Origin: Myxococcales bacterium
Lineage (GTDB): Bacteria > Myxococcota > Polyangia > Fen-1088
NCBI GenBank assembly: GCA_003155465.1
Contig: PMCR01000184.1
Span: forward strand, 1-14,059
DNA length: 14,059 nucleotides
Direction of reading: 5' to 3'
The notes beneath the pieces are model-generated. The model was not told the DNA's origin. It made no database searches and saw only the letters and a list, made by a program, of their open reading frames with translations. The translations under genes were made by a program, and so were the position numbers. This document shows positions 5,330-14,059 of this stretch, piece by piece (the first letter of the stretch is position 1; the number at the start of each line of letters is the position of its first letter).

Positions 5330-6019
5330 TCAGTCGCCCCCTTGGCTCAGCCCGGCCGCCGCGGCGACCAGCTGGGCCACGTCCAGCACGCTCACCTGGT
5401 TGCCCTGCCACTCAAACTCCTCGCGCAGGAAGCAGGGCCGGCCCGCGCTGCCGGCCCGCGCCCCCAGCACCGCCGGCTGGTCGTCGATGATGCCGCGAAT
5501 CTCGTCAACCACTAAAGCGATCTCGTATTCACCGGCGCGCACCACCACCAGGCGGGGCAGACTGGTGGCCAAGGTTGGCGCCGCAGGCCCCACGACCCCG
5601 ATCATCTGTTCGAGGCTGATGACCGGCACCAAACCTCCGCGCAAGCTGGCCACCCCCAGCACGTGACGCGCGGCCGTGGGCACCCGCGTGACCGCCCCCT
5701 TGACCGCCACCTCCTGGACCATGCCTGCTGCAAGAGCGAACCACCGCCCTCCCATGCGCACGAGCATGAGCGCCGCAGCTTCGCCCACGGGACTGTCTTC
5801 ATGGGAACCCTGGGAGGGTTCCCATACCCTTCGGCCCCCCACACCCACCCCCTCCCCGCTCGCTTCGCTCGGCCTCGCGCGATGGTCCGCCACGCTCGGC
5901 GCTGGCGAAAGCGCACGGGGTGGGCAGGGTGGACGGTCCGCCCCGAAGGCCGGCGGGCTCCCCACGCGACCAGGCGTCTCCGGCGGTAGCTCGCGCCAGG
6001 GCGCAATGGCGTGGCTCAT
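5330..6019 (-). CDS. cheW: CheW adaptor with repeat-derived N-terminal extension
   Basis: This 229-residue protein couples the chemoreceptor to CheA. The CheW-like core is at about 80-229 (ALMLVRMGGRWFALAAG, then GVASLRGGLVPVISL and ALVVDEIRGIID), including the typical LRG...P(V/I)I turn. Typical CheW is about 150-170 residues. The extra length is a Pro/Arg/Gly-rich segment at residues about 17-73, which coincides with the dispersed repeat at 5877-5970 and its extension to 5801. The start at 6019 is supported by a 4-nt ATGA overlap with the stop of the Hpt-REC gene (TGA 6018-6016), so the repeat-derived peptide is probably translated. ATG at 5802 is out of frame with the core. The segment is low-complexity and probably disordered, tolerated because it precedes the fold. 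The stop is followed by the receptor gene after 28 bp. Confidence 0.9.
   Translation of the reverse strand: MSHAIAPWRELPPETPGRVGSPPAFGADRPPCPPRALSPAPSVADHRARPSEASGEGVGVGGRRVWEPSQGSHEDSPVGEAAALMLVRMGGRWFALAAGMVQEVAVKGAVTRVPTAARHVLGVASLRGGLVPVISLEQMIGVVGPAAPTLATSLPRLVVVRAGEYEIALVVDEIRGIIDDQPAVLGARAGSAGRPCFLREEFEWQGNQVSVLDVAQLVAAAAGLSQGGD
5801..5825. repeat. Perfect 10-bp inverted repeat at the edge of repeat copy A
   Basis: Arms ATGGGAACCC (5801-5810) and GGGTTCCCAT (5816-5825) are exact reverse complements around a 5-nt loop TGGGA. The hairpin lies inside cheW at codons about 65-73, between the repeat-derived segment and the CheW core. A perfect stem of this length inside a coding region is unusual. 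It probably marks the far end of the longer form of the dispersed element. Confidence 0.8.
5877..5970. repeat. Dispersed repeat, copy A, inside cheW coding region
   Basis: This 94-bp block aligns without gaps to 12515-12608 in the same orientation, with 81 of 94 identical bases by hand count. Positions 5942-5968 are 27 consecutive identical bases shared with 12580-12606. It encodes CheW residues about 17-48 (VGSPPAFGADRPPCPPR and following). The unusual composition continues from 5876 down to 5801 and ends in a perfect hairpin; this extension is absent from copy B. Several frames are open through it on both strands, as expected for a stop-poor GC-rich element. Confidence 0.85.
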
Positions 6020-11116: not shown

Positions 11117-12676
11117 TTAGCTTGTCGGGGAAGTGAAGCTGAACGGATAGAGGACGATGACCATGCCCGCGCCCACCGGCTTGGGAAACTCCCAGCGCCG
11201 GACCGCATTGACCACGCAGTTCTCCACCCGCGCGTCGTTCATGCTCGTGCTCTGCATGACCGATGTCAGCACCTGTCCCAGGGGCGAGATGGCGAATTGC
11301 ACGGAGATGCGTCCGGCCAGCGCTGGCTTTCTCGCCAGTTCCTGGTCGTAGCAGTACTTCACCTCGTTCATATGCTGGCGAACGATGCGGCGGATGATCT
11401 CCTTGTCTAGCGAACCGCGCACCGTGACCACCCCAGGAACGATTTCGGGAACGATGGTGCGCCGTGGCCGGGTGAGCAGCCCCACATGCTGCCCATATCC
11501 GCCCTCGCCGCCTGATCCGCGACCCGCCGAACCCAAAGTGGCCAGGGAGCCGCCCCCGAGCGTACCCTGCCCGGTCCCGCCGCCGCCCGCGCCGGTGCCC
11601 AAGGGACCGAGCCCGCCCACGCCGCCTGCCTCGCCGATGAAAGCGCCAATCAGATTGCCCAGCACGTCCTCTGGATCGTTTCCCAGCGCCATCTCGCGTC
11701 CGAAAATCGACGCCATCTTCGAGTTGTGTTTGTTCATCATGCCCAGAATGCCGGAGTTCAGCGCGCGCTCCTCTGCCGCTTGTTTGCTCATATACGGATT
11801 CCGGTTGTTCTCCGGCCCCTTGACCGCGTAGCGCTTGTTGGCCTCGTTTGATGTCTTGCTGCCCATCTTGCCGGGATCACCCACGTGGGCCTTGCCCTCG
11901 TCGCCGCGCCCATCGGGCCGCCTGGCGGTAAGCCAGTCCGGCACTTTCTCCTCGACCGCCGGGATGGCGACAGAGGGCAGGTAGTTTTTGTCCCAGGCCA
12001 ACGACTCCAGCGACAGGGATCGCGCATCCGGCGGAATGGCGAGCATCGCCAGCAGCAACAGACCCAACCCCATCGCAGCGGCCGCGGTGTATTTGTGCTC
12101 AGCCCAGCGCAGGGCGAGCCAGTGGCGCGGCACCTGCTCGGCCTTGTGCGTGCGGCCGAGCACGAACACGACCTGGCCGCATTCCACGCGCGCCCGGCTC
12201 TGGCGCGGCAGGGTGAAGCTGCGACCGCGCTCGCGCACGTAGTCCTGCAACCGCACAGCGCGGCCGTCCACCCACAGCTCGCCGCCCATCTGCGGCGTCA
12301 CGTTCACCAGATAGTCCTGGCCCCAGGTGGTGATGAGGGGCAGCGAAGCCCCGCCGATCAGCTCCTGCGCGACCGGCGCGTCGGCCTCCGCAGTTGCGCC
12401 GATCACATACTGCGCCGGCCGCTTTCCTCTCCCCTCTCGGGCGTTGTCGTCCAAGTGGTGGGTGGCAATCAGTCGACCACGAAAATGGGCCTGCACTTCC
12501 AGCGTGTCACCCCCGCGCAATGGTACGCCACGCGCGCCGCCGGCGAGGGCGCGCGGGGCGGGCAGGGTGGGCTGTCCGTCCCGAAGGCCGGCGGGCTCCC
12601 CACGCGCCTCGGACCCCAAACCGTGGAACGTGAGCTTGTCTCGATACACATCAGTCCCTGTCGCGATGGTTGCCAT
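11117..12676 (-). CDS. AgmX/PglI C-terminal domain membrane protein
   Basis: This 519-residue protein belongs to the myxobacterial AgmX/PglI C-terminal-domain family, related to TonB-like energy-transduction ends and linked to gliding motility or envelope assembly in relatives. N-terminal cytoplasmic region about 1-195 includes a beta-rich part (ELWVDGRAVRLQDYV, RARVECGQVVFVLG). One TM segment lies at about 197-214 (TAAAAMGLGLLLLAMLAI). A long linker follows, with a Gly-rich run at about 350-410. The C-terminal domain (about 425-519) has the conserved Cys pair in VKYCYDQELARKP and ENCVVNAVRRWEFP. Residues about 24-54 are encoded by the dispersed repeat at 12515-12608. Start 12676 has AGGAG (12683-12687) 6 nt upstream; the ATG at 12724 is disfavoured. 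Specific partners are unknown. Confidence 0.88.
   Translation of the reverse strand: MATIATGTDVYRDKLTFHGLGSEARGEPAGLRDGQPTLPAPRALAGGARGVPLRGGDTLEVQAHFRGRLIATHHLDDNAREGRGKRPAQYVIGATAEADAPVAQELIGGASLPLITTWGQDYLVNVTPQMGGELWVDGRAVRLQDYVRERGRSFTLPRQSRARVECGQVVFVLGRTHKAEQVPRHWLALRWAEHKYTAAAAMGLGLLLLAMLAIPPDARSLSLESLAWDKNYLPSVAIPAVEEKVPDWLTARRPDGRGDEGKAHVGDPGKMGSKTSNEANKRYAVKGPENNRNPYMSKQAAEERALNSGILGMMNKHNSKMASIFGREMALGNDPEDVLGNLIGAFIGEAGGVGGLGPLGTGAGGGGTGQGTLGGGSLATLGSAGRGSGGEGGYGQHVGLLTRPRRTIVPEIVPGVVTVRGSLDKEIIRRIVRQHMNEVKYCYDQELARKPALAGRISVQFAISPLGQVLTSVMQSTSMNDARVENCVVNAVRRWEFPKPVGAGMVIVLYPFSFTSPTS
12515..12608. repeat. Dispersed repeat, copy B, inside AgmX/PglI-family gene
   Basis: This is the second copy of the 94-bp block at 5877-5970 (81 of 94 identical, no gaps, same orientation). 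Here it encodes residues about 24-54 (GEPAGLRDGQPTLPAPRALA and following), in a different frame from the cheW copy: offset from the start codon modulo 3 is 2 here and 1 in cheW. The flanks on both sides differ from copy A, so the shared block has defined ends. It interrupts the N-terminal region between VYRDKLTFHGLGSE and VPLRGGDTLEVQAHF. Confidence 0.85.
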
Positions 12677-12901: not shown

Positions 12902-13132
12902 ATGGCAAGCTCAGTTCGCCCGAGCAGGATCGTTGCCGCGCTCGCCCTCGCAACATGCGCTTGGGCTGCCGCGTGTGGATCCAGTACCGTGCCCCACCCC
13001 CTTGGTGTCCAGAAACAGATCGCTGGAATTCCTGCACAGAATCGCGGAGATGCGCAGCTTGAATCTGCGTGTCTGAGCGGGCAGCGTGGCCATCAATGCT
13101 TCCGGCAACGCTGCAATTTCTCATCACGATGA
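12902..13132 (+). pseudogene. Truncated lipoprotein, probably cut by the insertion sequence
   Basis: The plus strand from ATG 12902 reads 76 residues to TGA at 13130-13132. It begins MASSVRPSRIVAALALATC and continues AWAAACGSSTVPHP: two Arg, a hydrophobic core, and lipobox AAAC with lipidated Cys at residue 25. Only a short tail follows. Its last residues overlap the transposase reading frame starting at 13069 or 13096 but in a different frame, so they are probably insertion-sequence DNA. The simplest reading is a lipoprotein gene interrupted about 35 to 60 codons in. The rest of the gene would lie beyond the insertion sequence, outside the window. It could instead be an intact tiny lipoprotein, which is less likely. 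Confidence 0.6.
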
Positions 13133-14059
13133 TCGCATGCGCGATCAACGAGAGAATGCAGCGCAAGCTGGACCACACTCAGGAAGAGGTCCGGGTTCTC
13201 AAGGACGTGCTGAAGGCTCCCACGGGCAGCGATAGGATTGTATTCACAGCCGACCAACGTCGTCGCCTCGCCGTCTCAGGCAAAGCTTCGAGCCCGGAAG
13301 AGCGGGAAAGGTGCTGCCGGATCGTGAAGCCTGGGACGCTCTTGGGGTGGTTTCGCCAGATGGTGGCGCAGAAATACGACAGCTCGAAGAAGAAGGTCGG
13401 TCGACCACGGAAGAAGAAGGACATCCGCAAGCTGGTGATCGCTATGGCCATGGCGAATCTGGGCTGGGGATATACGAAAATACGCGACGCCCTTCGGACC
13501 GGATTGAAGATCGAGATCGGACGAACGACGGTGGCCAGCATCCTGCTGGAAGAAGCGATCGAGCCGGCACCGGAGCGCGAGAAGAAGCGGACCTGGAAGC
13601 AATTCATGAAGAGCCATTGGGACACGCTCTACGCCTGCGATTTTTTTTCAGCGTGGAAGCCTTGGGTCCATTCGGCACGGTTCGGTACATGGTGTTCTTC
13701 GTCATCGAGCTCAAGAGTCGCGCCGTCGACATCGCCGGGATTGCCGTTGACCCCGGCGAAGCGTGGATGAACCAGGTGGCTCGAAATTTGACAGATCCGG
13801 TTGATGGGTTTCTTCGTGGCGCGAAGTACCTGATCCATGATCGGGACCCGTTGTTCACGGAGGGGTTCGTCGCGATTCTGGAAGCGGGAGGCGTGAAGAG
13901 CGTGAAGATTCCGGCGCAAAGTCCAAATTGCAATCCATACGCGGAGCGCTTTGTAAGAACCATCAAGTACGAGTGTCTCAATCACTTCGTCATCTTCGGC
14001 GAGCGACATCTGCGTCACTTGATCAAGGAATTCGTCGAGCACTATATGACCGAGCGGTT
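13006..14059 (+). mobile_element. Insertion sequence with DDE (rve-type) transposase, partial
   Basis: The element is defined by its transposase; the right end is outside the window. The left end is uncertain. It must lie after the lipoprotein signal sequence and before the transposase start, and TGTCC at 13006-13010 is only a candidate terminal sequence. Without the right end, terminal inverted repeats and target-site duplication cannot be tested. Family looks like the IS3/IS481-like group with an integrase core. Confidence 0.6.
13096..14059 (+). pseudogene. DDE transposase, frameshifted at a T8 run and cut by window edge
   Basis: From ATG 13096 (MLPATLQFLITMIACAINER; a GTG at 13069 would add nine residues) the frame encodes a coiled N-terminal part, a helical region KKVGRPRKKKDIRKLVI and the approach to the integrase core, ending at the first catalytic Asp in YACDFF (codon 13639-13641). 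A run of eight T (13641-13648) follows and the frame goes out of phase. The core continues one base back, in the frame whose codons start at 13650: SVEALGPFGTVRYMVFFVIE, then LIHDRDPLF with second Asp (13839-13841) and NPYAERFVRTIK with the Glu (13944-13946). So D, D and E are all present but split over two frames. Relatives read through without a break as DFF(S/T/A)VE, so six T would restore the frame. It is either inactive or depends on slippage at the T run. Confidence 0.8.

Follow-up and report, generated by a model that had tools for sequence, protein, structure and literature searches.

The DNA analysed here, hereafter the window, is a stretch of 14,059 nt from a Myxococcales bacterium (contig PMCR01000184.1). 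Between positions 358 and 6750 its minus strand carries a chemotaxis cluster encoding a CheB with two receiver domains, a CheA with a receiver, an MCP, CheW and an Hpt-receiver protein. The cheW gene (5330 to 6019, minus strand; 229 aa) starts, as proposed in an earlier note on this DNA, with the ATG at 6019, which overlaps the upstream stop codon as ATGA. Another gene (11117 to 12676, minus strand; 519 aa) encodes a protein with an AgmX/PglI C-terminal domain that scores above the NF033768 cut-off; its similarity to GltG stays below the cut-off. A transposase/integrase-like gene occupies positions 13069 to 14059 on the plus strand; its first part has no Pfam match at E 0.001, while the second part (from ca. 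13690), identified by eye, continues in a different frame beyond the end of the window.

The earlier note had reported a 94-bp block common to cheW and the AgmX-domain gene. Positions 5877 to 5970 indeed match 12515 to 12608 at 81 of 94 positions without gaps, including 27 consecutive identical bases (5942 to 5968), and the widest ungapped alignment covers 83 of 96 positions (5873 to 5968 versus 12511 to 12606). Chance similarity was ruled out by a self-BLAST of the 14-kb window, in which this match had an E value of 1.9e-24 and the runner-up non-self match one of 0.009. The sequences around the two blocks are unlike each other and the host proteins are unrelated, both as had been claimed, CheW displaying PF01584 at residues 84 to 220 and the other protein NF033768. 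Because the block is read in different frames by the two genes, the match exists at the DNA level and does not reflect a common protein domain.

A repeat is therefore present as stated, but the reported block corresponds approximately to one half of it only, namely the part that contains a first hairpin, H1. The full copy in cheW (copy A; 5795 to 5968, minus strand) comprises 174 nt or 58 codons and accounts for residues 18 to 75 of CheW, which corrects the 17 to 73 first given. A conserved CGCG served to place its left end; the right end was set 7 nt past a second hairpin (H2), on the model of the empty sites described below. Copy A is composed of H1 with a loop module (5878 to 5968, minus strand; divided by eye against 81-nt copies), an extra module between the hairpins that encodes a peptide around ARPSEASGEGVGVGGRR (5831 to 5877, minus strand; by eye), and H2 (5801 to 5825), a perfect 11-bp palindrome with a 3-nt loop and no mismatch, to which nothing comparable occurred in 200 shuffles. 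By eye, the 174 nt are thus explained by the addition of the H1 loop module and of the second module before H2. Copy B, in the AgmX-domain gene (12510 to 12606, minus strand; inner boundary approximate), consists of H1 and the loop module and lacks H2. In the structure predicted for CheW by AlphaFold2, the blocks over residues 1 to 80, native linker included, have a pLDDT of 51 to 60, and 12 of the 15 blocks after residue 80 one of 82 to 96.

A search with the window CheW protein returned 102 proteins, 12 of which (P0090 to P0092 and P0094 to P0102) have no CheW annotation yet contain its N-terminal segment. The segment common to CheW and other proteins ends in the DNA palindrome at 5801 to 5825, and its occurrence in other protein families led us to reject a CheW-specific linker. 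The source record of one element-bearing protein reads Polyangia bacterium.

Structure, target and distribution of the repeat unit

Scanning the genome collection for this palindrome yielded at least 120 stretches, located in MAGs titled Myxococcales, Deltaproteobacteria, Proteobacteria and, in one case, Chloroflexi. Among these loci, 138 palindromes were counted, of which 123 could be oriented by the standard junction and 89 have a recognisable left end; of the latter, 86 had enough flanking sequence for the coding test (79 with the 51-nt distance defined below) and 82 were aligned. A covariance model provided 68 matches, reduced to 66 after two shorter ones had been dropped, and 13 of these already belonged to the first set, leaving 53 further copies.

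The basic unit measures about 81 nt (27 codons) and combines the covarying hairpin H1, the hairpin H2 ATGGGAACCCTnnnAGGGTTCCCAT and a short tail near TNTCART, in the order CGCG, H1, CGCGGGAGGG, H2 and tail. Of the 89 copies whose left end could be recognised, 82 have CGCG at a distance of 51 nt from H2; adding the 23 nt of H2 and the 7 bases that follow it according to the empty sites gives 81 nt, a length that for the aligned copies was set by us in this way. In the 82-copy alignment, the H1 covariation score was 0.181 versus 0.055 +/- 0.004 in shuffled alignments, a value reached in none of 500 shuffles, and double-change cells numbered 139 versus 48. The invariance of H2 is not evidence of the same kind since H2 was the search pattern and copies were picked by its exact sequence. 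Neighbouring copies, in one orientation or the other, are spaced by 81 nt in six of 16 pairs, by 78 to 84 nt in seven and by 105 to 118 nt in three, and two further spacings of 84 were observed among model matches at L278; because these spacings differ, the right end or tail of the unit varies. At L029, L044, L087 and L092, a second subfamily, with CGCGTAGGCG, CGCGTTGGCG or CGCGTCGGCG as its left end, occurs 78 nt behind another copy.

Insertion is biased with respect to the sequence directly 5' of the element. Among the 77 copies that do not lie directly behind another, ART was found at this position in 32 (0.9 expected), TAGT in 13 (0.06 expected) and CTAGT in 10 (0.01 expected). In the set of 53, which also contains adjacent copies, ART was found in 25 cases and TAGT in 14. 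More than half of the copies lack a 5' ART. The right-terminal bases of the unit resemble the target, and no general signal of target-site duplication beyond that of permuted pairs was obtained for the 89 copies.

The earlier note had made its idea of a mobile element depend on the genome holding more than these two copies, and copies proved numerous. The covariance model, for which no more than 150 candidates were scored in any genome, detected 4 to 149 matches each in 16 of the 18 genomes of the order to which G009 belongs. In total, 18 of 30 genomes were positive, the other two being one of 11 other members of the class (G014, with 48 matches; G021 to G030 had none) and G012. The latter, a MAG titled Chloroflexi UBA12275, has two copies outside the class, due to either contamination or transfer. 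Exact palindromes numbered 2 to 118 per genome in all 14 MAGs, which had been chosen for having at least one, and they were present in 13 of the 18 genomes of the order and in 14 of 317 genomes of the class. Carriage by viral contigs, plasmids or phages was rejected, as viral contigs gave no match to the exact palindrome, and plasmids and phages none to the element at the sensitivity used.

Copies inside genes and their insertion history

Based on codon usage, 13 of 86 copies are in frame in coding-like ORFs versus 339 of 594 random positions. These 13, which include two orthologous sucD copies (L005 and L058) and one whose ORF runs through Ns (L039), were joined by ten of the 53 further copies, themselves chosen as 81-nt model matches. 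The pooled figure of 23 out of 139 corresponds to a depletion in genes (Fisher P = 8e-19), in a test that detects in-frame copies only and leaves disruptions outside the count. A stricter coding test, replaced by the codon-usage test, had retained seven copies with both flanks coding on one strand, six of them in frame and open and one shifted, a stop preceding the element. On the whole, most copies look intergenic, with a minority in frame in genes. Twelve of the 13 in-frame copies measure 81 nt and one 78, the 51-nt distance being present anyway in 79 of the 86 copies tested.

The in-frame copies are read in three sense and two antisense frames, so that no fewer than five of the six possible frames are used, in both orientations. 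Among the 12 proteins without a CheW annotation, host families include cobalamin adenosyltransferase, RdgB, DapF, YdjC and M23/LysM. A second protein search (seven proteins including the query, the families of three being rechecked) added two HflX, two protein kinases, an HGSNAT-type protein and one protein without Pfam domain. Further hosts include LigA, AceE, an HpnN-like transporter, a YtfE-like protein, MutS, an amine oxidoreductase, a Lnb-N protein, a histidine kinase, a DUF362 protein, SucD and a dynamin-like protein. When matched to solved structures, SucD and RdgB each show a single break, at residues 114/145 versus 113/117 in E. coli for the former and at 94/138 versus 114/116 for the latter. 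In the DapF protein P0096 the frame seems, by eye, to be lost past the element, which speaks against tolerance. In the HflX proteins P0103 and P0106, one and the same place holds composite forms of the element that differ from each other. Of 82 copies, 77 have an open frame +0; an adaptation of the element to openness in many frames was nevertheless rejected, open frames being no commoner than in 81-mers drawn at random from these loci. The encoded peptide has 27 codons and Pfam scans revealed no intein domain, which sets the element apart from inteins.

Empty sites were identified for two genes. The element is present in antisense in sucD of G009, G001 and G002 and absent from that of G013, G011, G005, G007, G003 and G008; filled and empty alleles differ by 81 columns and the target is not duplicated. 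The junction at this site is without ART and reads GCAA, or GCAG in the two empty alleles that are closest. A downstream frame change in sucD of G002 is a second observation that speaks against tolerance. The dynamin-like GTPase gene is filled in G002 and empty in G001, G010, G009 and G013, all four showing GAAT at the junction, and here the insertion amounts to a net gain of 81 nt, again without target duplication. In similar membrane-protein genes of G001 (L040:4255-4335) and G010 (L287:704-784), the element occurs at nearly the same place in different frames, as a result of either two insertions or one insertion with later shifts.

The situation of the two window copies is different in age. 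The cheW orthologue of G004 has a full basic copy, that of G011 a reduced one, and remnants were seen by eye in G001 and G002; the more distant orthologues of G005, G006 and G007 are without the element. As to the AgmX-domain gene, a full copy occupies this site in the orthologue of G002 (L011:2775-2855) and the G004 orthologue is empty. The earlier note had held that a segment shared by CheW orthologues through descent would speak against a mobile element, and close orthologues do share the insertion in this way, intact or eroded, just as the agmX site is shared with G002; the family, however, is dispersed. Since these sites are shared, the pair in the window goes back to old insertions common to relatives, and the family as a whole has been mobile. 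The note's broader proposal, a small repeat tolerated in coding sequence, finds support in the copy number, the in-frame copies in unrelated proteins and the empty sites in two genes.

Proposed mode of transposition and relation to known repeats

Elements of the IS200/IS605 family, which use a Y1 HUH transposase, have subterminal hairpins and a target-like right end, and insert 3' of a short target without duplicating it. The element described here resembles them in its hairpins and its target-like right end, and in part in its strong preference for sites 3' of ART/TAGT without general target duplication. It differs in that this preference is incomplete and that no TnpA/TnpB parent with these ends was found. 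The target bias, together with the absence of general target duplication and of terminal inverted repeats and with the target-like right end, fits single-strand transposition of the HUH/Y1 type. The element would thus move as single-stranded DNA by means of such a transposase acting in trans, with H1 as a putative left end, H2 as the right end and the terminal TNTCART as the candidate right cleavage site. Insertions into genes would survive when 81 nt, or another multiple of three, add an open and probably disordered peptide at a tolerant loop, and later gain or loss of modules may have produced composite forms such as the cheW copy.

No autonomous parent sharing the ends of the element was detected in the MAGs, which may be incomplete. 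Y1_Tnp matches occur in 6 of 14 genomes, none of these genes having the element in the flanks fetched, and a TnpB-bearing parent was rejected as the TnpB model matched in none of 13 genomes. The most serious alternative, which we nevertheless regard as rather doubtful, is a REP/BIME-type repeat family that owes its spread to a RAYT transposase (TnpA_REP). GTGG- and GTAG-like 5' hairpin parts are present in the element alignment, one subfamily reads CGCGTAGGCG, general target duplication is lacking, and a RAYT-like protein with an HUH-like motif (by eye) was found in 10 of 19 genomes, all ten with 20 or more exact palindromes. Its match to NF047646 is, however, below the cut-off, and the co-occurrence, good with exact palindromes, may merely follow kinship; it was moreover weakened by the model, which found copies in seven genomes from which the protein is absent at E <= 1e-8 (99 matches in G003, 73 in G008, 48 in G014, 20 in G015, 18 in G018, 5 in G017 and 4 in G016). 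A RAYT gene flanked by the element was also rejected, none having been found in the MAG flanks fetched, which contain other repeats or are without this element. Several of 12 full-length RAYT-like genes (L126, L187, L188, L189, L199, L205 and L206) have other short repeats upstream, around GTAGGTGCCAGAGTTTTC or GGTGCCAGACGCTTCC, which perhaps form a REP-like family of their own. The hairpins with tag-like 5' parts, high copy number, location mostly outside genes and lack of general target duplication do recall REPs, BIMEs and REPINs, but the present unit differs by its two dissimilar hairpins in fixed order and by the lack of a RAYT gene found flanked by it.

Spreading through an RNA function, as a terminator, mRNA stabiliser or cis-regulator, is unlikely. 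It would account for the strong H1 covariation and for the majority of copies being outside coding-like ORFs, and in 33 of 83 cases a gene end is no more than 60 nt away on one or both sides; copies within genes nevertheless occur in both orientations, no U-tract follows H2 (by eye), and a known RNA family was rejected because no Rfam family reached its gathering score in the window and one copy gave three sub-threshold matches. More improbable still is a DDE-type MITE, bounded by terminal inverted repeats and a duplicated target. The size, dispersal and apparent intergenic bias of the element would be compatible, many insertions are at CTAG-like targets, and words of at least 6 nt are shared by both flanks in 5 of 89 copies (1.9 expected), four of which are beside another copy; target duplication is otherwise absent, the termini match in inverted orientation at 5.9 of 14 positions versus 5.3 with shuffled letters, and the gain at empty sites is a net 81 nt. 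Lastly, a Pro/Ala-rich linker arising without mobility, by shared ancestry or low-complexity convergence, is barely conceivable: such peptides are expected from GC-rich DNA and close CheW orthologues have the segment by descent, but a DNA repeat at many sites per genome, in differing frames and both orientations, with hairpin covariation and clean empty sites, refutes it at the DNA level.

Rickettsia and Wolbachia provide the best-known cases of palindromic insertions that keep the frame of a gene. As described in passages of PMC2229807, PMC3733652 and PMC10969869, Rickettsia palindromic elements (RPEs) are short dispersed hairpin-forming repeats located between genes and in frame in conserved genes; according to the first, they measure 105 to 146 bp and have a long stem and terminal inverted repeats. 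Protein-coding palindromic repeats of Wolbachia are known here from the title of a reference in PMC2229807. The comparison with RPEs made in the earlier note holds as an analogy, given in-frame insertion into unrelated conserved genes, and not as membership: the present unit has about 81 nt, two separate hairpins and no terminal inverted repeats, the 174-nt cheW copy being a composite. It is further set apart, by description, by its GC-rich hosts of another phylum and by its use of at least five of six reading frames. Enterobacterial ERIC and Neisseria Correia elements are small repeats also reported as fused in frame to ORFs, which in a review table in PMC2229807 have terminal inverted repeats and target duplications; the present element has no terminal inverted repeats and no general target duplication. 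The passages of these three papers and of PMC8538405 do not contain the present element, and no description of such an element in Myxococcota was found among open-licence PMC papers, judged by their titles.

Overall, these repeats are probably short non-autonomous mobile elements, probably transposed as single strands, that would be tolerated in proteins and are RPE-like in effect yet distinct. The most suitable description is a new family of two-hairpin repeats that act like RPEs and, by the tests made, are not RPE, REP or MITE; the element itself is most likely selfish. A bolder reading can be offered only tentatively: the 27-codon unit, mostly stop-free in its main frame, might represent an undescribed single-strand-transposed class that has repeatedly entered core genes (ligA, mutS, aceE, sucD and hflX) of free-living bacteria in several frames and then grown or shrunk by hairpin modules in codon multiples, adding peptide segments to proteins order-wide. 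With up to 149 copies detected per genome in 16 of 18 genomes of a GC-rich order, the family leads one to ask by what enzyme a two-hairpin unit this short (ca. 81 nt) is mobilised. Filled and empty alleles of core genes constitute a natural experiment on the conversion of mobile DNA into protein sequence and on which protein sites tolerate insertion.
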